From Dictyophora rubrovolvata (taxonomy: Eukaryota; Basidiomycota; Agaricomycetes; Phallales; Phallaceae): a stretch of DNA of 64,000 nucleotides. Under the pieces are notes generated by a model, which was given only the letters and a program-made list of their open reading frames with translations, ran no database searches and was not told the origin of the DNA. Location: the NCBI GenBank assembly GCA_029959195.1, contig CP114119.1, forward strand, positions 744,001-808,000. The letters run 5' to 3'. Every line of letters begins with the position of its first letter. Position 1 is the stretch's first letter. The translations under genes were made by a program, and so were the position numbers. This document shows positions 12,096 to 61,507 of the stretch, piece by piece.

Positions 12096-15000
12096 ATGTT
12101 GGGTCATCAATTTGCGTATTCTGCAGCTCCTATTCGCCAGGTCAAAGAAGTTCAATTTAGTATTTTGTCCCCGGAGGAAATTGTTAGTTCAGGCGTAATG
12201 CCACCCGTTTTTATATCTTACGCTAACATGCCGTAGAAAGCATACTCTGTCGCGAAAATTGAACACCCAGAATTATGGGAAGAAGGCACACATAAACCCA
12301 AGATGGGCGGGCTTATGGATCCTCGGTTAGGTACCATAGATCGAAATTTCAAATGTCAGACGTGCGGTGAAGGAATGTCAGAGTGTCCGGGTCATTTCGG
12401 CCATATAGAACTGGCCAGACCAGTTTTTCACATTGGTAAGAAGTGCCGAAATATTTGTGTCGTAGCGTCATTAATATATCTATTCTAGGTTTCATTGTCA
12501 AAGTGAAAAAGATTTTGGAGAGTATATGTGTCAATTGTGGCAAGCTCAAGGCCGACCTTGTGAGTCGACATTACTTTTGCTCTCAACTCGTTTTCGCGCC
12601 CCACCTCTCCAAATTTTCTGGGGGCTCTCCCCATTGAGGGGAACCCCAAACCCGTAGTCGTTTCTTTTTAAGTTGTTGGTGTTCCTTCCTTTGAGGTGGG
12701 GTTGGGCGCGCGACTTCGGTCGCTTGACCGCCGCGTTCAACCGCTGCACACACTTCTTATGGTTGGACCCACGATGCGGGTGAAATGGGGGGCTTTAACG
12801 AGGAGTGCGAAAAAGATGGATTGACCAGACAAAGGAACCTTCTAACGGAAGGCCTCCTTTGTTGTGGTAGTAAACGCACATCTTCACCGGCAAAACTAAG
12901 CATGTTCTTCTTACGTTTTGTCTAATCGTTTGGCCCTTCTTTTGTTTTATATTTAATTAATCCCATATGGGAGTCCGCGAAACAATTGCTAACATACACT
13001 TTTCATATTTTTTTTCTTCTTCCTTGGTCTGTGTCGTGATTTCCCGCCTATTTCACTACACCCATGGTTAGTCTGATCCCTCCTTCGCCGAGAAAGTTAA
13101 GCATTCTCGCGAGGCAAAAACCCGTATGGCTGTGGTTTGGAATTACTGCAAATCAAAAACTGTCTGCGAACTGGATGCAATTGAGGAGAACGAAGCAGAT
13201 GTGCCCGATGAATCGACAGGTGTTAAAAAAGGTCATGGCGGTTGCGGTCATGTCCAGCCTGTTATTCGGAAGGAGGGTTTAAAGCTGTTCCTGCAGTACA
13301 AGAAAACAAAGGATGAAGATGATATGGTGAGTCGGATCCAATGTCTTGACGCCCAAGGCCTAAGAACCTTCGTTCGCGGTAGGACGTCAAATCCACTCAA
13401 CCTGAAAAGCGATTGTTCACGCCGAGCGAATGTTTCAATGTTCTCAAGAAAATTCCTTCTTCCGACATAGCTTTGCTGGGATTAAGCGAAGAATATGCAC
13501 GCCCCGACTGGATGATTCTTACTGTGCTGCCTGTGCCCCCGCCCGCAGTTCGACCTAGTATCGCCGTAGATGGTGGTACAGTGCGCAGCGAAGACGACTT
13601 GACATTCAAGCTAACGGACATCGTAAAGGCATCTGCTAATGTTCGACGGTGCGAACAGGAAGGCGTGCCGGCGCACGTAACGTCGGAGTTCGAGCAATTA
13701 CTCCAAGTATGCCGTTTCTACACACACTATCTTTCTTCTAATATCCTTTTCACAGTTTCATGTCGCCACATACATGGACAATGATATTGCTGGCATCCCC
13801 CAGGCTTTACAAAAGTCCGGGCGCCCGCTAAAGGCGATTCGAGCGCGTCTAAAAGGGAAGGAAGGCCGTTTACGTGGAAATCTAATGGGAAAGCGTGTAG
13901 ATTTCTCAGCAAGAACGGTCATTACTGGTGATCCGAACATCGCTCTCGATGAAGTCGGGGTGCCCAAAAGCATCGCCATGACCTTAACATATCCAGAAAG
14001 AGGTATTGTAGTAGTGCATAGGGATACAGCTTGTCGGCTGATCTTCCTTAGTTACACCATACAACATTGCCTATCTTCAAGAGCTAGTGCGAAATGGTCC
14101 CTTGGAGTATCCGGGAGCACGATATGTAGTCCGAGATACCGGTGAACGAATTGACTTGCGGCATAACAAGCGGGCAGATGCTTTTTTAAATTATGGATGG
14201 ATTGTAGAGCGACATTTGAAAGACGGAGAGTAAGTTGCCATTCCCGCCTTCCTGCTGTCCTAAACTAATATCCCTCAGCTATGTTCTATTTAATCGTCAG
14301 CCCTCTCTTCATAAAATGAGTATGATGAGTCATCGAGTAAAATTAATGCCTTATTCAAGTGAGTTCATTGTTTTCTTTGTTCGAAATATCTATAAATAAC
14401 TCCTTACGTTGAAAGCATTTCGGTTAAACTTGTCCGTCACACCACCTTACAATGCTGACTTTGACGGTGATGAGATGAATATGCAGTAAGTAGTGTTTTC
14501 TTCTTTACGGAGCACTGATTTAATGTTATCCAGCATCCCACAGAGTGAAGAGACTCGAGCAGAGTTGAGCCAAGTTGCTTGGGTACCGCGTCAAATCATA
14601 TCTCCTCAAGCCAACAAACCGGTGATGGGCATTGTCCAAGATACTCTATGCGGTATCAGAAAATTCACACTACGAGATTCATTTTTGGATTGGAATCAAG
14701 TACAAAATATATTACTCTGGGTCCCTGGTTGGGATGGTACAATTCCTACTCCGGCCATTATTAAACCTAAGCCTTTGTGGACCGGTAAACAGTTGCTCAG
14801 TATGACCATCCCTAGAGGTATCAACATTTCCCGGAACGCTGACGACCGGTCTCCAAATCCTGTTTTCGACGACGGCATTCTAGTCGAGAACGGTGATATA
14901 ATCTACGGAATTGTGGAGAAAAAGACTGTCGGTGCTTCGCAGGGTGGTTTGATCCATGTTGTGTTTCGCGAGAAGGGACCAGATGCTTGCGTTACATTGT

Positions 15001-18000
15001 TCACTGGAATCCAATGGATTGTCAATTATTGGCTATTCCACAACGGATTCAGCATCGGTATCGGCGATACGATTGCGGATAAGCGTACTATGCTTATCAT
15101 TAAACACCGCATTACTGAAGCCAAGTCCAAGGTGCAAGACATCCTTCAAGAGGCCTACCAAGATCGCCTTCGTCCATCACCTGGTATGACTATCAGAGAG
15201 TCATTCGAAAGCAAAGTTAACCGGGAGCTGAACGTGGCTCGAGACGAGACTGGACAAGAGGTTCAAAAAAGTTTGAAGGAGGACAACAACGTCAAGCAGA
15301 TGGTGACAGCTGGTTCCAAAGGTTCTTTCATTAACATCTCACAAATGGCAGTCTGTGTGGGACAACAAAGTGTTGAAGGAAAACGAATTCCGTTTGGTTT
15401 CAAACATCGTACACTACCTCACTTCTGCAAAGACGATTTCTCAGCGGAGGCTCGAGGCTTTGTCGAAAACTCTTATCTTCGTGGTCTCACCCCTCAGGAA
15501 TTCTTCTTCCATGCTATGGCTGGTCGAGAAGGTCTAATTGATACGGCTGTCAAGACAGCGGAAACCGGTTATATCCAGCGTCGTCTGGTAAAAGCCTTGG
15601 AAGACGTGATGGTCTGCTACGATGGAACCGTGCGCAACTCGCTGGGTGATTTAATCCAGTTCAGTTACGGGGAAGACGGGATCGACGGTGCCTTCATTGA
15701 ACGTCAATCAGTAGAACCGTTCCATCTCAGCAATAAGGCTTTCGAGCGACGATACAGAGTTGACGTGACAGAGCCCTCCAAAGGATTTTTGCCTGGTACC
15801 CTCCAGTTCGGATTGGACGATAGTTCAATTGAATTGCAGACCAAATTGGATGAGGAATGGAATCAATTGGTCGAAGATCGTCGCGTCCTCCGGGACTTCA
15901 TCTTTACAGCCAACGACGCGACACGGCCACACTATCTACCTGTGAACCTTCGACGAATTGTGCAGAATTCGCAACAAATTTTCCATATAGACCGTCGGAA
16001 GCCCAGTGATCTCCTCCCTGCTTATATCATCGATTCAGTAAAAGCATTGTCTTCCAGGCTAATCATTGTACGTGGCGACGATGTCATTAGTCGCGAAATG
16101 CAAAACAACGCAACACTATTGTTCAACATACACCTTCGGTCAACGTTCGCAACTCGACCCGTACTGGAGGAATACCATCTGAATAGAGAAGCGTTCGAGT
16201 GGGTGTTGGGTGAAGTGGAAACGAAATTTAATCAATCAACCGTTAATCCTGGAGAGATGTGTGGGACACTGGCAGCACAATCTATTGGTGAACCAGCGAC
16301 GCAAATGACATTAAACACCTTCCATTATGCAGGTGTCGCCTCAAAGAACGTCACACTGGGTGTACCTCGATTAAAAGAAATCATCAACGTCGCAACAAAT
16401 ATAAAAACTCCATCGTTGACCGTTTTCCTAACCCCAGATCGAGCCAAAGACGACGAGCAAGCCAAGGCTGTTCAAACGGAACTAGCTTTTACGTCGCTTC
16501 GAACCGTTACTGCAGCAGTGGAGATTTGGTACGATCCCGATCCGACCGCCACTCTAATTGAAGAGGACAAGGACTTCGTGGAAGCCTTCTTTGCCATTCC
16601 AGATCCAAATATTGAATCACAATTACATATGCAGTCGCCCTGGCTCCTGCGTCTGGAATTGGATCGCGCCAAAATGTTAGATAGGAAACTTGAAATGAGT
16701 TTCGTGGCGAGTCGGATTGCCGACAGTTTTGCTCAGGATCTTTTTGCCATTTGGAGTGAAGACAATTCCGAGAAATTGATCATTCGTTGTCGTGTACTTG
16801 GCAGTATGGACAAGGATGAGGAGGGTGTGGCGGCTGTTGAGGAAGACATGTTCCTTCGTCAGTTGGAGAACACTATGCTTAACTCTGTCAGTCTCCGTGG
16901 TGTCGACGACATTCGCCGTGTCTTCTTGATTAAGCATGACAAAGTCACCATTTCGCCGGAAGGGGTCATTGACACTAAAGGCGACAAAGAATGGGTTCTG
17001 GAGACTGACGGCGTCAACTTGAAGAAAGTCATGTGCATCGAGGGAGTTGACTTCCGCAGAACATATTCTAACAGCTGTGTTGAGATATTCAAGGTGTTGG
17101 GTATCGAAGCCGCTCGGGCTGCTTTGTTGAAGGAGTTGCGGTCCGTCATCGAATTTGATGGTTCTTATGTCAATTTCCGCCACCTTGCTTTGCTTTGTGA
17201 CCTCATGACGCATCGAGGATCTCTGATGGCCATCACTCGACACGGTATTAATCGTGCAGAAACAGGTGCCTTAATGAGATGCTCTTTCGAAGAAACAGTG
17301 GAGATTTTGATGGAGGCTGCTGCCATTGGTGAGAAAGACGATTGTCATGGTATCGCGGAAAACGTACTATTTGGTCAAATGGCGCCTATGGGGACTGGGG
17401 CATTCGATGTCGCTCTTGACATGGATATGCTAAAGGATGTCATCGTGGACTCCCGTCTACAGGCGGACACCTTACTCACTGCACACGCTGATGGTGCTAT
17501 GACTCCCGGGCCCGTGGCTATGACGCCGTATGATAGCAATTCGCCAATGTGGGTCGATTCATCGTTCAAGGGTGACGCAGCTGCTTTCTCGCCCCTTGCA
17601 GCTAGTGGCGGAGAAGAGACTGCTAACTACCAGTATCTTGGTTTCGGTCAGAGCCCTTTGGGTGCTGGTGGAATGTCGCCGGCAGGGCCAGCATACAGTC
17701 CATCATCTCCTAATGCATATTCCCCTACGTCTCCATATGTCCCACAATCACCATTTGGCGCCGCAGCAACTTCACCTTTTGCTACATCTCCTTACGCTAC
17801 CTCGCCATTTTATGATCGTTCTCGTGGTGCAACGTCTCCTACTTACTCTCCTACTTCACCGGCATTGAATTTGACTTCACCGGGATACTCGCCTACGAGC
17901 CCTCGTTATTCTCCTACTTCTCCCACATTTTCTCCAACCTCCCCTCGTTACAGTCCACAATCCCCATCATTCAGTCCTACTTCCCCACGGTATTCACCCA

Positions 18001-18659
18001 CGAGTCCCTCGTTTAGCCCAACGTCTCCCAGATATTCCCCGACGAGCCCATCGTTTAGTCCCGCTTCGCCACGCTGTAAGCTTATTTCTTTGTTATAGTT
18101 TCCAGCTACTTATGTTATCTCTGTAGATTCACCAAGCAAGTACCCTTCCTTTTCACTCTACTTCGTTTGTATTAATTTTTTTCGTTTATCTCTTTGAACA
18201 TCTAGCTTGTAAGTTGTTCATCCACGTTATTTCGAAAGCATAACTAAGTCGCCATGTTAGCCCCCGCACATGCGTCCCCCACTTCACCCAAATATTCACC
18301 TACGTCGCCGTTAGCTTCTCCCACATCTCCTAAATATTGTAAGTGTTTCCAAACCCTATTCGTCGGAGAAACATGTCCTTATATTCTCCTTAAGCTCCCA
18401 CATCACCAGCATATTCACCAACTTGTAAGTCAGGTCTTTATCCTTTTCGTCCAGAATCTAAAACGCTTGATCCTTCAGCGCCTACATATTGTAAGTAACT
18501 TTCTTGTTCGAAAGGTGCGCACAAGATTGGCTTATTCCGTTTATTTTAGCCCCCGCGTCCCCTGCCTACAGTCCCACCTCTCCGGTTTGGTCACCATCAA
18601 GCCCCGCCAGAACAAATGGCAAATCAAGTGTTTACAGCACATTACCCTCATGGGAATGA
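12096..18659 (+). CDS. RPB1: RPB1, largest subunit of RNA polymerase II
   Basis: Catalytic subunit of the mRNA-synthesising polymerase. The N-terminus [21 protein letters not shown], the clamp zinc site ([36 protein letters not shown]), the Mg-binding active-site loop [11 protein letters not shown] (split by an intron after AATATGCA), and the trigger-loop/bridge region ([19 protein letters not shown]) are all present. The body is followed by a heptad CTD of about 20 repeats and ends PSWE-stop. The 5' third has about nine introns, one of them 512 nt; a 3.5-kb exon follows; the CTD is cut by six phase-1 introns (see separate entries). The ATG at 12096 gives the canonical start. Exon 1 most likely ends at 12182 so that SPEEI joins [12 protein letters not shown]. 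Confidence 0.96.
12560..13071 (+). other. unusually long RPB1 intron (512 nt)
   Basis: Intron joining KADL to [19 protein letters not shown]. Its donor is gtgagt and its acceptor ggttag. It is about ten times longer than nearly all other introns in the window. It contains GC-rich inverted stretches around 12610-12720 (GGGGGCTCTCCCC; GGTTGGGCGCGCGACTTCG) and a T-rich end. No open frame or known RNA motif is seen. It may hold an old insertion or a regulatory/RNA element. Confidence 0.6.
17692..18620 (+). repeat. RPB1 CTD heptad repeats with micro-exons
   Basis: Repeats of the YSPTSPx type. In the uninterrupted part (about 17860-18075) Tyr and Phe alternate at position 1 and Arg or Ser/Thr at position 7 ([14 protein letters not shown] units). 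The end is split into exons 18127-18135 (9 nt), 18206-18208 (3 nt, CTT), 18261-18338 (78 nt), 18395-18424 (30 nt), 18479-18490 (12 nt) and 18551-18659. Every junction is phase 1, and joining them gives unbroken heptads ([20 protein letters not shown] and so on). The intron at 18136 has a GC donor (gcaagt). The 3-nt exon restores YSPTSP; without it the text would read YSPTPA, also in frame. Confidence 0.8.
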
Positions 18660-26641: not shown

Positions 26642-29600
26642 ATGACCTCTACACAAACACAAGAAGCCCAAGTCTTGGCTGCATTAGAAGTTTTCAGCAG
26701 CGCTACCGATAAGGACGCAATTAATCGTGTCAATAACTGGCTACTAGATTTCCAGCATTCAGTAAGAACCGCCTTTTGGTTATCCCTTCCCGAACCTCCC
26801 GTTCAGTAATCACGATTTAGTCTGAAGCATGGTCAACTGCGAATAATCTACTTTTAGCATCCGATACCCTCCCCCATGTTCGTCTGTTTGCAGCGCAGAC
26901 GTTTCGTGCAAAAGTAAGATGATTCTTTACTTTACAGATCACGAAACCACATCATCTTCTTGGTTTATAGGTGGTTTTTGACCTCTCTCAAATTCCTTCA
27001 AGTCAGCATCTTCCCTTGCGTGATACTCTTATCACTGCTATGCAATCGATCTCCCAGTCGGGTCCCAAAAATGTCATCACGCACCTCTGCCTTGCTCTGT
27101 CCGGTCTCGCGCTTCAGGCACCGCTATTTGATATTATTGATGTCATGGTCAAAACGTTTGGACAAGATCCCGAAGGTGTTAGAGTTCTCTTAGAGTTTTT
27201 AACAGTCTTCCCAGAGGAGCTTGCCGATAATACAAGGATACCCGTCCCCGTGAGTAGCGTGGGACGTAATGAATCAAGGTCTTCGTTTGTTTTCTAACGG
27301 GGCCGATCTTCTTTTAGTCTGAAGAATATAACGAACGTTTGCCTAAGTTATTGACAGAGCATGCAGCAAAAATCTTAGAACTTTTAACAGTTTACATACA
27401 GAGTCCAGGTGCGCCACTTGCGTCCTTCGCCCTTCTCGCCCCGTTTTCGCTCATATTCGGATTATTGGGTTCTCTTGTGTTAATTCCTTAATTCCTCTCC
27501 CTCCAAAAATGCCACCACCGTAATCAGCCGCGACTATTACCATTCAAAGTCAAGTTTTCAAATGTCTCCGCAGTTGGCTGAGTGCTGGAGAAGTTATGGC
27601 CGTGTCCGTGGCTGAAACTCCCCTTCTCCAATTCGCCTTCGAAGCACTCTCATCGGATGTGTTATTCGATTCCGCTGTCAGTCTAATCGTTGACATCATA
27701 CACGAAACTCAAGAATTGCAAGAGAATATGTCTGTTATCCACATCATTGTGCCTCGAGTCATTGCATTGCAGCCCATGCTTAGTACATGTCAAGACGACG
27801 CGGAAAAGATCAAAGGATATACAAGAATTTTCGCCGAAGCTGGCGAGACATATCGTATTCTCCTTTTGCAAAATCCCCAGGAGTTTCTTCCCATTATTCA
27901 AGCCATTGCTGAATGCACTGCATATCCAGATCTGGATATCGTCCCGCTGACTTTTTCTTTTTGGTGGCGGCTCGCACAAAGCATCGGAAAACGACCTACA
28001 GTTCCACCTGTCTTGCTTGAGGTTTATAATGCCCTTGTTGAAGTTATTATCCGGCATCTTCATTTCCCCACGGATCCGAATAGCATGACTGCTCAAGAAC
28101 AGGATGATTTCAGGTCATTCAGACATACTATGGGCGATACATTAAAGGATTGTTGCCACGTTCTTGGAACCGATAAATGTCTCATGAAAGCTTACGAGAT
28201 GATTGTCGCCGCTTTGTCTGCCAACACTGGATGGCAGGCTATCGAAGCTCCGTTGTTTTCTATGCGTTCTATGGGTGCTGAGATGGATCCTATGGACGAT
28301 CATGTTATCCCTAAGGTTATGGATTTGCTGCCAAAGTTGCCCGATCACCCTCGTGTTAAATATGCTGCGCTTCTTGTCGTTTCGCGCTATACAGAGTGGA
28401 TTAGCAACCACTCGAGTTATATACCATTCCAGCTGCAGTATATCTCGGGAGGCTTTGACGACGTTCATACGGCATCGGATAGTGAAGTGCCTGCTGCTGC
28501 TGGATTGGCGATGAAGTATCTCTGCAAGGACTGTAGACAGGTAATGTTTTCCTTTATTTAAAAACTGGACGGACATTTCGATCTTATTTATCATTTATTT
28601 ATTTATTTTGCTTGGTTATAGCATGTGGTCCCTTACATTTCTCAGTTGCACTCCTTTTTAAACACTGTGGGGACAAAACTTAATCATGCTGATCAGCTGC
28701 AAATTTATGAAGCTGTGGGGTATGTTATATCCTCTATGCCTACGCGGGAGGCGTCTCAAACATTGCGAACGTTCTCGACGGACGTTTTGGCGAGGATTCA
28801 TGCCATAGTCAACAAATCGAGTGTCGCTAGTAAGGATGAGCTGCAGTCGCTAACCCGTGAGTACCAGATATCTCTTGTTAGTTCCACTATTCAAGACTCT
28901 TGCTTCAAGATTATTTGGAACACCTTGAGACTATGTTATACGTGGTGAAAGGCTTTAGCGAAGAGTTGCCCCAAAACTGTCATGAGACAGGCTTAGAAGC
29001 TTGGACGTTGTTCGACACTCTCCTAACCAAGTACGGAGAAAACTTCATGGTATGCGATCGTGCCACGAGGGTATTGCGGCACGGTATAGAACTTTTCGGC
29101 ACTACCGCTCTCCCCTTCGTACCTCAAATCCTTTCTCGTATGACCACTTCATTCGAGGCATGGGGACATGCTGGATACGTTTGGATTGCTGGAAAAACGA
29201 TCGCGAGATTTGGAAATAGTGCCGATCCAGCACTTCGACTGGTTTTTAAGCAGACATACGAAGGGATTAGTGCCAAGGTATTCACGTTGCTGCAAACGGT
29301 TTCTCCGATGAACATTCCAGATGGTAAGTGTCGTCATATCATCAAGTTTTTTTTGTTTCACTATTCTTTTTTGTAGTCATAGAGGACTATCTCCGTTTAA
29401 GTCTTCAGATGTTCGATGTCATACCGGACGTTCTCTTCTTGTCATCACAATTCTCAACTAGTTTCGCGGCATCTATCGCTGGTCTAGCACTCGTTCAGCC
29501 AGAAGTCAATCTTGTTTCTCTCGATTTCATTCAAACAATAATCTCCCATGATTGCCTAAACGCTCCACAACCCGGTGTAGTCCCACCTCCGAATTTCGTT

Positions 29601-55732: not shown

Positions 55733-58700
55733 TTACAACTGCTCCCACCCACCAACATCCATAATCGCATCCACCTTGCGAGTAATGTAGGAAGGAATAT
55801 TATGATTCAACCAAAGCTTGCGTATTTCTTCATACCGGATATCATGCATACTCTGGCGGCGTCCTCTTCTAAACAAATCATCAACGCATATTAGTTTGCT
55901 TCTTGAAAAAGAGAAAATAAACTCAAACCTTAAACTGTAATCTACCTCTCCATGTGCGTCTAAATACGGAGCAGGCGCAAAGGAACCGCTTCCATCGAAT
56001 AGATAAAGAACGGTACATCGTTTGACCACAAAATATGCTCCAATAACACCGGCACAGCTGTCGGGGGTAAACACGATAAACAAAAAAACAATCAAAAGAG
56101 AGAGAGAAAAAATTCTTCACTAACTCTCGTGTGTGTAAATTGCATTCGCCTCGATTGCGGTTTTCCGCATCAACACAACAATGACTGGAGAAGCATACGG
56201 TCGAACCACAGATCAAACAAATAGCAGGATCGGCTGGAGCAGTATTACAACGCGCACATGTCATCTCCGGATTCTTATGTCCGAATAAATCGTCTAGATA
56301 AGATGGCAACTGAGCAAGGTGATACATGGTCGGATATTCCAAAGGAATGTTACAGTCCAAAGGATGACTGCCATGCATGAAGCCGTAATGGGCGCACCAT
56401 CCGGACAAGGCGTTCTGAATAGTATCGTAATTGGAAAGCTCGGCTAAAGGAGGAACACCGAGGACATGCAATAAACGGTTATATTCGTCCATATCTTCGT
56501 CCATAGGCGGCACTGGTGAAAGAGATGATGGGTGAACTGCTTTTCGAAGGAGAACAGCCTTGCGTAAAAAGAGCAGTGAGTAGTTATACAATAATTTGGC
56601 GAATCTTTCCTCTCCAAACGCTTCTAAAACCAACTCTGCCGTGTGTTCCAGTAAATTGGAATGGCGGACGACAGACATCACAAACGTGCTGAGAGTACCG
56701 AACGTTTGTCGATAGTTGGGATAACTTGGCACATGTAGCTGAAGATGTTGAATTTTAATCAAAGCCTGAACAATTCCGATGGTAATTCTGGCCAGAGCTG
56801 CATAATACGATAGGATAGTCACATAACGAAGACTCTCCGGAGAAACGGCAGACATTTCAACTAAGATCGCGAACGGGTCCCGTAACAACAGAGGACTATT
56901 AAACGCAGGCTCTCTACGCCATTCGGGCAATAACCGTTTGACGATAGCTTGACGAATCGCATTTTGACCACCATCCGCCCGATCTCTGAAAGTCAGAGCC
57001 GCCAATTTGGTAAGGCAAGTAATCAGTCCTCGAATCAACAACACTTGAAAGTCGGTCAACTGATCGGCCACATATTTTCCGGGAAGGGTGGCGACCCCTC
57101 GTAGCGTTACTTCTATTGAGGAAATCGTATACCCTACGAGCTCCTCCGGCAAATACATTCCAACGCCACGTTCTCCCGGCTCCTGCTCTATCCGATCACG
57201 AAGACGTCGAGACTGAGATGAAATTATCCTCGTAGCGAACATGACACTATCAACCATCTTATGTATATCGGTAGGATCGACTCGGTCGGTATTCCTCGGG
57301 AACGACTGGTAACCAAAGTCCTGTGCAGACCAAAACACGAATTCGCCCGATCCGCTCTTAAAATGCAACGACTCCATCAATCGATCCGGGGTAGAACGTA
57401 AAAGACTTATGCCCGTCGTACGAACCCAATCCGGAAAGGATAAAGCATTGGTGGTCACGTTGCTTACGACCGAGTTGACTGGTATAATGACATTACCCAA
57501 ACTCTTGCACAGAGGGCAGATGAACTCTTTCCTCTGAATCTGTTCAGGATGATTCCTCTGCGCTTGTGTTTTATGACGCTGTCGAACTGCGTTGGCATAT
57601 GTGGCAAAGCAATTGAGATGTATCATATGTCCGCATGAAGAACCGTACATTCCAAAGCGAACGTTACTCCGAGGCATAGCGTTGAAAGGCATGTGTGTCG
57701 GTTCTGTAGGAAAAGGTGATGGTGACGTTGCTTTCTTTTTCCCTTGGTGGTCTGACTGATCGACACGATCCCACGAGCGGTTGCTTTCCAGAACGGTGTT
57801 GAGATGACTTTGAGAACTAGGGGTATGGTCGGGAGAATACCGGAGAAGCTTGCTTGCTTGGATAAAACCTAAATTACCGAATGGCCGCGTAGAATCGAGA
57901 GGCTCTTGACACACAATACAAGGACCATACGACTGAAAAGATGAAACAGGATCACCAGCATCCGCCATCTCTTCATCTTCATCTTCATCATCGAAATTAT
58001 CTAAAAAGTTCTTCTGGGCAACGGCAAACTGTTTCATAATCGCATCTTGACGAGCTTTGGCAGCACGCTTCTTAGGATCGCCTGTAGAATCCTTCGCCAC
58101 CGCCGTTTCGAGGATTTTACGCTTTTCAGACACCGCCGAAGATTCATGTACAGCCATCTTGTCTAAGCACCACTGAATTTTACTTTTCAAAGATGAAAAT
58201 GCTTCGTTGTGTTCAAGTAAACAGAGCGCCTCGATTAAAGTGTAATCGTTCCCTCGTTTGTATGTCACGACAGCAGACAACCGTGAAAAGGCCCGCGGCT
58301 GTTCTACTAAGCCCAACATTATGAGATGCAGAGACTGATCCAGAATAGCCTCTGCGTAGACCGAAGTCATCTGCCCTTTGTTTTGACAAACGTTATAAAT
58401 CGCGAAGAATATGATTTGGTGAAGCACCGTGGATTGGAAAGCATTGGTCAGAGCCGTGAAAGGTCCCGAACGTACATTCAACGGTTGCGGGACATATATG
58501 TACTCGGTTTTAGGATTCCTCTTCTTTGCACGCGCCTTCAGAATACCTTCAGCCTCTTCCCGTTTATTTCTTGCATAGTGATAGAAGTAAGGGTTGACCT
58601 CGTCGTAGAACTTGTCTTTAAGCTCGTAAACACCCGAGTCTGTGGTAGTTTCCGGCGACTTGAATGTGGCAACCTCCAATAGAATGTTCTCAAAGGAGAC

Positions 58701-61507
58701 ATCCTCCACCAATCTTTCAGCAACGCGTTTGCAAATATCCGTGAATCCGCACGGTCCAACGGCGAGGGCGTGTATTAGTTCCCTACGAATGGCATCCCGT
58801 ATAGACAGGTGTTTTGCGTTTCCATACTCGCTAAGGCAAGTTATGATAACGTATAGGAATTCTTCGACCATGCAGGATAACTGATTGTCATCATATAAGG
58901 CGGAATCCATATCTCCAGAAAACCATCCCAATAATTGGAATCGGTCCAACGCACTGACAAGCACGATATTGGGGTCTAAGATGACGAAGGCTGACTGTAA
59001 AATGAACAGGTCCTGATCGTAGCAAAGCTCCCGTAACATGAAATCCCGGTAGTGGAGAAGCTGACCCCGTACAGCAAATCCATTTCGTACCCAAAGACCG
59101 GCACGAATTTGAGCAATCATGGTGATCACTGATAACTTGATTCAGCTGAATAATCTAACGGTTTTTGAGGGGACAAACGTTTACCTCTCAAAGGAAAGTC
59201 GATCAATGTTAGGACATCCAAATCTCCACCATTTCGAAGGAGAACGTCCCGTAAACTTCGATATCCAATGGTTTGAAGAGATTCGGAGCTCAGCAACTCA
59301 ACGTGCTTGAAGAGCTCCGATAATAACCAATGCAATCCCTGATGAAAACTAATCCATCCTTCTAAAACGTCAAAATTTACAACTTTATAAGTCGCGTTGT
59401 TGAATTCCACCACGTGGGGTATTATTGACCTGTACTTTAGTCGATCGAGTCGGGGTTCTTGAAGCGTACATACAGACATCGTGTGTCGGATGACCTCTGT
59501 GATGGCGTCGACTAGTTGAGAAACCGTAGCTTTGCTGTAAGCTTCCCCGTAAGCTTTGATCACCCGTGAGAGCGAAAGTGTAACGTTGAACACGTTTATC
59601 CAAGTGTCGGATTCGTATTCAACATGTGTCTGTTTTACGCGTTGATTCGGATTGATGCCCATAAACATCTGGCACATTTTGCAAAACCCGATAATGAACT
59701 CCTTGTTTTGAACGACTATCTCCTGCACGGTGGGATTCGAGCAAAGATAGCGCAGGTCTGCGAAAATAGGCATAAATCTTTTTGATTTAAACGCCTTTGA
59801 TTCTGGATCGACGATACGAGTTGGTTCAGGAGGGAAAATGATGCGAGTATCTTCTATTTGTTCTGTTGAAAATGCAGTGATGATTGCCAAGAGACGAGGT
59901 ATGAGATTGTATGTGCGAACGACATGTGAGGCGATGCTTGGAACAGTGAAAAGTTGTAATGCAAAATATTTGACGGAAGTCTCAGCTTCCCGGTCAATCA
60001 ACAAGAATGAATCAATAATACGGTTGTAGATGGCTGCAAAATGAGAGGCTAATGAAACTAAAGTTAATATATCTGTTGTGCGAGCAAGAACTTGAAACGA
60101 ACCTATTATTAATTTGTGTTCGTGATTTAATGTGATCATGGATACGTATAGTTGTTTGAGATTGAGACGAGGCTTTTTCCATAGTCGAGTATGGTACAAG
60201 AACAGCCAGTCCAGACGAGATGGAAATTCAGCCTCTGTATACGATTTAAGTTGTAGCTGATTAGAATATAACGTGTTCCCTCTTTTTCTCGGATGTAATA
60301 GTTCAGGACAAATGAGTTCTCGTAAAACTGTGGCATCTGTTCCCACTCGACACCGAGTTAAATCCAAGAGCCATTCAATCATAATGCCGGAAATTTCTTC
60401 TCTAAAGGTATCAAAGCTACGCCGAATCGTGACACCAAGATCGATCTGGTGTAGTCTGGTACCAACATCAAGAAGCTTTGCAAAATCGTCGCTCAGTTCG
60501 ATAATATCTCGCCCCTATTGGCATGGACAGATGAATTGGTTATTAATCGAATGTAAGGTCCGACCTACCTCTTCATCTATTCGATCTACTGAGCGGGATA
60601 CTTCAGCTACGTTTGCGCCTGTCGCCTCGCGTACATTGTTAATCACCTCATCAAAAGAGTGTTTGTCATCGTTCCAAAGCAATACAGCGTAGAGATCATT
60701 TTCATAAGGGTCGGCCGTCTGTTGAGCGCGTAATGCGGCAATCTCCACAGGCGGAACAGCATCATCAGGGGAAAAATCTAGAGTATCCAGGATATAATCG
60801 AGAACATATGCAATGGTTTTTGTAATGGATTCTTTCAATTCGTTTGGGAAGGTGGAACGAGTTGGGTGCCTGGTTGGTGACCAGACATCAGGAAGTTTGG
60901 GGGTACCTTGTGTTACAGTGGGTCGGGTAGTCGTGGCGGTGGCGGTAGATGGAGGATGGTAAGGGCAATTGGGACGAACACGCCAAGACTCGCTATCGCC
61001 ACAATCACAGCAGCCTCCGGGCTGATGGCTGATGTAAAAAGTGACATTATGTCCTTCATGTTGGGTGGCTTTGAAACAACGGAAGCACATGACAGAGCTG
61101 TCGTCCAAAGCACAATCTCTAAGCACATTATGATCAGCCAATGGAATATGAAAGAACTATATATCATTTAACTTGCAACGGTAACAGCATTCGCCTTTCT
61201 GAAAAATGTGTCCGCACGACCGACCTGGAATTGGTTGTTCGTTTATTGGGTGTTTGGCTTGGAGTTCCGAAAGCAAACTCCTCACGTGTGGCACGTTTGA
61301 AGCAGTAGGAAGAAACAGTCCGACATATGAACCCCAAAATGCTTCGTACAGTGCTATCAAGACTTCCACTCGCATCTGCGATGGCGAGTAGGACCGTTTC
61401 GAGGTCAGGACATTTTCCACAGTATAGCGAAGCCGCGTAAACGAATCGGAGGACTTCTCTCGTGAATTTATAGAACCTAGGAAGTTTTTCATTGATGCCA
61501 AAGACAT
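55733..61507 (-). CDS. UBR1: UBR1, E3 ubiquitin ligase of the N-degron pathway
   Basis: Large N-recognin that binds proteins with destabilising N-terminal residues and ubiquitinates them with an E2 of the Rad6 type. About 1,830 residues, six exons. The UBR box spans the first intron: CGHIFQKGECCYRCK|DCALDDSSVMCFRCF, HEGHNVTFY, GGCCDCGDSESW. The ClpS-like region follows with YAVLLWNDDKHSFDEVI. The RING-H2 finger is near the middle (CIVCQEPLDS, then CGHMIHLNCF and FICPLCKSLGNVIIP) after an acidic DDEDEDEE run. The C-terminal UBLC cap has CARCNTAPADPAICLICGS and CVDAENRNRGECNLHTRE. The end is VGGWEQL-stop. All motifs of an active enzyme are present. Confidence 0.95.

Follow-up and report, generated by a model that had tools for sequence, protein, structure and literature searches.

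Very short coding exons have been described in several fungal systems. In the P450 genes of Phanerochaete chrysosporium, exons encoding 2–10 amino acids, the shortest of which is 6 bp, were reported between introns of 45–55 bp, and alternative splicing of these genes was suggested by the authors (PMC1184071). The size range of micro-exons is worded as 3–30 nt or as up to 36 nt (PMC11121469). For stwintrons, a form of tightly packed fungal introns, a connection with the skipping and loss of exons was drawn by the authors (PMC6616335). Among the titles and abstract openings listed by searches of open-licence literature, no description was found of a CTD whose length is set by alternative splicing. 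Fungal micro-exons are already known, and what the RPB1 tail described here adds is a predicted case of an exon of 3 nt.

The RPB1 gene is located at positions 12096–18659 on the forward strand of the window, which is the whole 64-kb stretch of DNA that was analyzed, and was modeled from start to stop with 15 introns and a product of 1764 amino acids, the core of which was matched to solved chains. The 5′ introns were positioned by means of the reading frame and the splice consensus. In the open frame at 14490–18074, the core matches solved RPB1 chains, with 3h0g_A, which we take to be fission yeast Pol II RPB1, on top at 1605.8 bits, and Pfam Rpb1 domains 3–7 together with the C-terminal repeat (PF05001) are found within the same frame. 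The motif [YFW]SP[TASQ]SP occurs 19 times in the model; 12 copies precede the first tail intron and belong, together with the core, to an intron-free exon of 3542 nt (14534–18075, forward strand), and the other 7 follow that intron. This long exon separates two clusters of RPB1 introns. The introns of the gene model measure 48–70 nt with the single exception of intron 3 (12560–13071), which at 512 nt is about ten times as long as the others and may hold an insert. Two neighbors in the window resemble a transportin-3/importin-13 type karyopherin (27524–28558, forward strand) and a UBR1-type E3 ubiquitin ligase (55926–59141, reverse strand). Rfam and tRNA scans across the 64 kb returned no matches.

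The end of the heptad tail is proposed to be interrupted by six introns on the forward strand, each in phase 1, and the heptad position of each can be read from the junction residues. Tail intron 1 (18076–18126, 51 nt, GT-AG) interrupts a heptad at Y1 and is followed by a 9-nt exon, ATTCACCAA (18127–18135), for which chain enumeration and shuffles are given below. Tail intron 2 (18136–18205, 70 nt, GC-AG) lies at T4 and is separated by the 3-nt exon CTT (18206–18208) from tail intron 3 (18209–18260, 52 nt), which lies at S5. After an exon of 78 nt (18261–18338), tail intron 4 (18339–18394, 56 nt) is found at S2, with an alternative in-frame acceptor that ends at 18409. An exon of 30 nt (18395–18424) then leads to tail intron 5 (18425–18478, 54 nt, at S5), the 12-nt exon CGCCTACATATT (18479–18490), tail intron 6 (18491–18549, 59 nt, at S2) and the last exon, which carries the stop (18550–18659). 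The putative exons of 9, 3, 30 and 12 nt are of micro-exon size and have GT or GC and AG boundaries. On a hand-set consensus score, the GC donor of intron 2 (CAA in the exon, then GCAAGT) is the weakest of the six at 2.06, and the others score 4.58–5.30.

An earlier note on this DNA had given the same six introns and internal exons of 9, 3, 78, 30 and 12 nt, and its coordinates and sizes proved exact; the common phase of the introns and the symmetry of the internal exons, all multiples of 3, were borne out as well. Its description of the joined tail as clean YSPTSP units was nearly right, but two irregular spots are present in the 78-nt exon. The placing of CTT among the smallest exons possible was fair; the shortest exon reported from the Phanerochaete P450 genes measures 6 bp (PMC1184071). 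Phase 1 is shared by all six tail introns vs 3 of the 9 upstream RPB1 introns (one-sided Fisher p 0.017), a uniformity that chance gain alone does not explain and that counts against the explanation preferred below. RNA folding of the CTT region, run without a shuffle control, gave nothing usable.

Whether such a chain exceeds chance depends on how many chains the region can form. Candidate donors at 18000–18650 were defined by the pattern G[TC]RNG, with GC counted only as GCAAGT; seven were found, six of which are used by the proposed chain. By combination of the seven donors with any AG acceptor at intron lengths of 45–200 nt, 1506 chains were enumerated, and the proposed chain was the sole top scorer with 54 heptad-covered residues, ahead of nine chains at 48. 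The micro-exons were examined further with dinucleotide shuffles of 18082–18256 (n = 20000, introns of 45–80 nt). An equivalent heptad path via exons of 9 and 3 nt arose in 0/20000 shuffles, and in 4/20000 when the GC donor and the exon of 9 nt were held constant, vs 584/20000 for open in-frame paths of any sort. Openness alone is therefore weak evidence, and the heptad pattern is strong evidence. At the level of sequence, the observation of six introns and micro-exons in the tail is confirmed.

The same region was also scored by a model blind to heptads, which combined a hand-set consensus with codon usage trained partly on the large exon of RPB1 itself and included a fixed penalty for introns longer than 200 nt; a self-trained gene finder was discarded because it drifted from 153 to 272 introns across three rounds. 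The heptad-blind gene finder recovered five of the six tail donors, missed the GC donor at 18136 and took the acceptors ending at 18136 and 18409. Eleven structures were scored, in which the single-exon skips were those of the 9-nt, the 3-nt and the 12-nt exon. The proposed chain obtained 171.71, and values of 171.82 with acceptor 18409, 172.59 with acceptors 18136 and 18409 together and 171.25 with tail intron 5 retained were obtained for in-frame variants. The proposed chain is thus level with or just under the variants that use acceptor 18136, acceptor 18409 or both, and its exact form rests on the heptad pattern. The most direct competitor is a different exon structure in which an intron at 18076–18136 is followed by a 72-nt exon (18137–18208), so that the 9-nt and 3-nt exons disappear. 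This structure is open, in frame and picked by the heptad-blind finder, with a score of 172.47, but it would bring a hydrophobic run into the CTD with the loss of YSPT, and the shuffles described above produced open in-frame paths of some sort in 584/20000 and the heptad path through the 9-nt and 3-nt exons not once. On balance the 72-nt exon is distinctly unlikely.

The 9-nt exon, the CTT exon or both could instead be skipped as a rule with the rest of the tail unchanged, by means of introns at 18136–18260 (CTT skipped, 125 nt), 18076–18205 (9-nt exon skipped, 130 nt) or 18076–18260 (both skipped, 185 nt). The codon frame would be kept in each form, to read RYSPTPAHASP, RSSPAHASP or RSPAHASP, respectively, and a 3-nt exon would no longer be needed. 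However, the three forms score 167.45, 170.66 and 168.45, all under the proposed chain, their introns are longer, and in two of the three the strong GTAAGT directly after CTT would stand idle; routine skipping is consequently very improbable. As occasional events the small variants are another matter. Several of them lie within about 1 log unit of the proposed chain, so that leaky isoforms arising from acceptor 18136 or 18409, from retention of intron 5 or from a skip of exon 2 are plausible.

The earlier note had gone further and proposed that the number and order of heptads in Pol II could vary by alternative splicing or by exon duplication. Regulated splicing of symmetric micro-exons as a way to tune the heptads would draw on the six phase-1 introns and internal exons divisible by 3, on the weak GC donor at exon 2, on the in-frame variants that score within about 1 log unit and on the skips between introns 3 and 5 or 4 and 6, which would preserve the register, and a precedent for a fungal micro-exon switch is provided by Xlr2 of Trichoderma virens (PMC11121469). 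The heptad register argues in the opposite direction. Any single-exon skip keeps the codon frame and breaks the 7-residue register (e.g., YSPTPAHASP or YSPTYSPASP), because the flanking introns sit at different heptad positions; an exon acting as a heptad module would have the same heptad position on both flanks, and this is the case for none of the five single exons. Of the 15 possible intron pairs, only two coincide in heptad position, namely introns 3 and 5 at S5 and introns 4 and 6 at S2. The corresponding double skips, of the 78- and 30-nt exons and of the 30- and 12-nt exons, would yield clean heptads and keep the register, but they require introns of 270 and 211 nt, vs 48–70 nt for all RPB1 introns of the model except the one of 512 nt. 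Their scores, 150.03 and 151.64, respectively, are the lowest among the 11 structures, partly because of the fixed penalty above 200 nt; a skip of the 12-nt exon scores 164.93. The symmetry noted earlier therefore stands, and the clean variation drawn from it is mostly unsupported.

Intron retention offers few further products. If tail intron 1, 2, 3 or 6 were retained, an early stop would follow, which for intron 1 lies at 18096–18098 and leaves a CTD with 12 motifs; in yeast, more than 12 CTD repeats were reported to be required for normal growth (PMC5940151). Retention of tail intron 4 shifts the frame. Tail intron 5, with 54 nt that are stop-free in frame, would add 18 residues on retention; an exitron would show both retention and removal in addition to a stop-free length divisible by 3. 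Mutation of the distal CTD of budding yeast was reported to be without observable phenotype (PMC5940151), which, if transferable, would make the distal tail a poor site for a dial. Regulated tuning of heptad number and order is accordingly very unlikely: a tunable CTD length is possible, though unsupported, and the unshared heptad register speaks against its simple form.

An extended version of this idea involves feedback. The CTD itself promotes splicing, and a polymerase whose CTD length is controlled by splicing could regulate its own tail. Such a dial would depend on weak and nearly tied splice choices, above all on the GC donor at exon 2. The acceptors at 18136 and 18409, a retained intron 5 and the double skips between introns 3 and 5 or 4 and 6 would also contribute, and CTDs that differ in heptad number would result. 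The chance that it operates at this locus is very slim.

The likely explanation, in our view, is that the micro-exon tail is spliced essentially one way and that its introns were gained in a loosely constrained repeat. The six short tail introns would be removed by intron definition to leave essentially one product, which would read RYSPTSPAHASP in spliced form and encode a single CTD with about 19 heptads, of which the split tail would supply 7. The CTT exon may have been left when one intron landed three bases before another, and the two introns that flank it would be removed successively rather than simultaneously, because there is no room for both at once. Isoforms from leaky acceptors or from retention of intron 5 would probably be low-level by-products and not a regulated dial of CTD length. 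In favor of this constitutive chain are its first place among the 1506 enumerated chains, the shuffle results (0/20000 and 4/20000), the blind recovery of 5/6 donors, the RPB1 identity given by solved structures and Pfam, the clustering of introns in the tail, the register breaks on skipping and the precedent of the Phanerochaete P450 genes. The weak GC donor at intron 2 and the heptad-blind ties count against it.

The clustering bears on the origin of the introns. The final 4.6% of the coding sequence contains six of the 15 RPB1 introns (binomial P 3e-5), and the 3542-nt exon that precedes them has no intron. When introns are lost through cDNA, those at the 3′ end should disappear before the others, and for this reason we infer that the tail introns were gained, in a loosely constrained repeat. 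The gain would have been late, as suggested by the position of the introns 3′ of a 3.5-kb intron-free stretch, and would have taken place in a repeat that is tolerant of changes in length and wording.

Alternatively, the tail introns could be copies of one another, either by duplication of heptads with their introns or as introner-like elements, in which case their common phase would come from copying. Tail introns 3 and 5, both at S5, are preceded by 13 identical spliced nucleotides, TATTCACCAACTT, followed by GTAAGT (18207–18214 for intron 3 and 18417–18430 for intron 5); such a match for some intron pair was obtained in 23/5000 synonymous shuffles. Introns 4 and 6, both at S2, are each preceded by ATATT. 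The shared 13 nt hint at a copied segment that was later split by intron 2, and to that extent the exon duplication suggested previously receives some encouragement; nevertheless, the copied-segment reading was not relied on because the bodies of introns 3 and 5 are unrelated (p 0.22). Among the six tail introns no convincing pair was found by body similarity (p 0.65 for introns 4 and 6), the best of the 15 pairs being introns 3 and 4 at an uncorrected p of 0.03. A comparison of the tail introns with the eight short 5′ introns of RPB1 likewise showed no convincing likeness (best of 91 pairs, uncorrected p 0.003), and introns alike over their bodies, as expected of introners, were not seen among the RPB1 introns compared. 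The tetranucleotide TTCG is present in five of the six tail introns (introns 2–6; 18136–18549) vs 14 of 78 others (Fisher p 0.002), a weak observation in that the motif was chosen post hoc and the 78 control introns are unverified predictions. Mutual copying of the tail introns is thus unlikely, and gain in the repeat remains the preferred origin.

Two further ideas were rejected. Intronized heptads are disfavored in that all six tail introns are unlike heptad-coding DNA (p 0.09–0.94), a result that also weighs against duplication of heptads with their introns. The idea that the introns serve to fragment repetitive DNA found no support: the mean pairwise DNA identity of the heptad cores is 0.61 in the unsplit array vs 0.65 in the tail. 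In the genomic sequence, exact repeats reach 11 nt at most in the unsplit array and the tail alike.

Searches of viral and prokaryote contigs with the RPB1 core gave 7 and 16 pattern stretches, respectively, and no confirmed relative. With the heptad DNA pattern, four stretches were found in the viral collection and three in the prokaryote collection, six of which (L001–L006) match by tblastn; with approximately 30–47% identity outside the heptads, none is close enough for a comparison of intron positions. L001–L004, from the viral collection, carry YSPTSP heptad tails, and L001 and L002 match the RPB1 core at about 32–47%; the four look like candidate giant-virus RPB1 genes with a CTD. L006, on a contig filed as a Gemmatimonadaceae MAG, has an RPB1-like core of approximately 30% identity and YSPTSPA heptads that run to the contig end, and probably derives from a eukaryote or a virus, its contig having been placed in a bacterial bin.

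If the tail is merely constitutive, it represents a compact case of how intron gain may cut an essential repeat domain into exons of 3–12 nt. It would offer a hard test for gene-model software, as the heptad-blind finder missed it, and a test for ideas on how the spliceosome handles a 3-nt exon beside a GC-AG intron. If the isoforms were regulated, CTD length, usually considered fixed per species, would become variable within one cell.

Compared with known systems, the repeat contraction and expansion reported for the budding yeast CTD is likewise a route to an altered repeat number, but it operates at the DNA level and not by splicing, and the word "intron" is absent from the main text of that report (PMC4882425). 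Stwintrons resemble the RPB1 tail as tightly packed fungal introns that are removed successively, although in a stwintron one intron interrupts the splice signal of another, whereas RPB1 tail introns 2 and 3 have their own signals with a 3-nt exon between them (PMC6616335). In the chain enumeration, separate introns in simple succession were enough to explain the tail sequence. Xlr2 of Trichoderma virens shares with the RPB1 tail an in-frame fungal micro-exon; its inclusion was reported to be glucose-dependent and to alter function (PMC11121469), in contrast to the RPB1 tail, which is described from sequence. The nearest likeness in architecture is found in the P450 genes of Phanerochaete, a wood-decay basidiomycete, where tiny coding exons also lie between introns of about 50 nt (PMC1184071). 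Unlike those genes, with their shortest exon of 6 bp, the RPB1 tail contains a putative exon of 3 nt, located among the heptads of a polymerase subunit that is essential.
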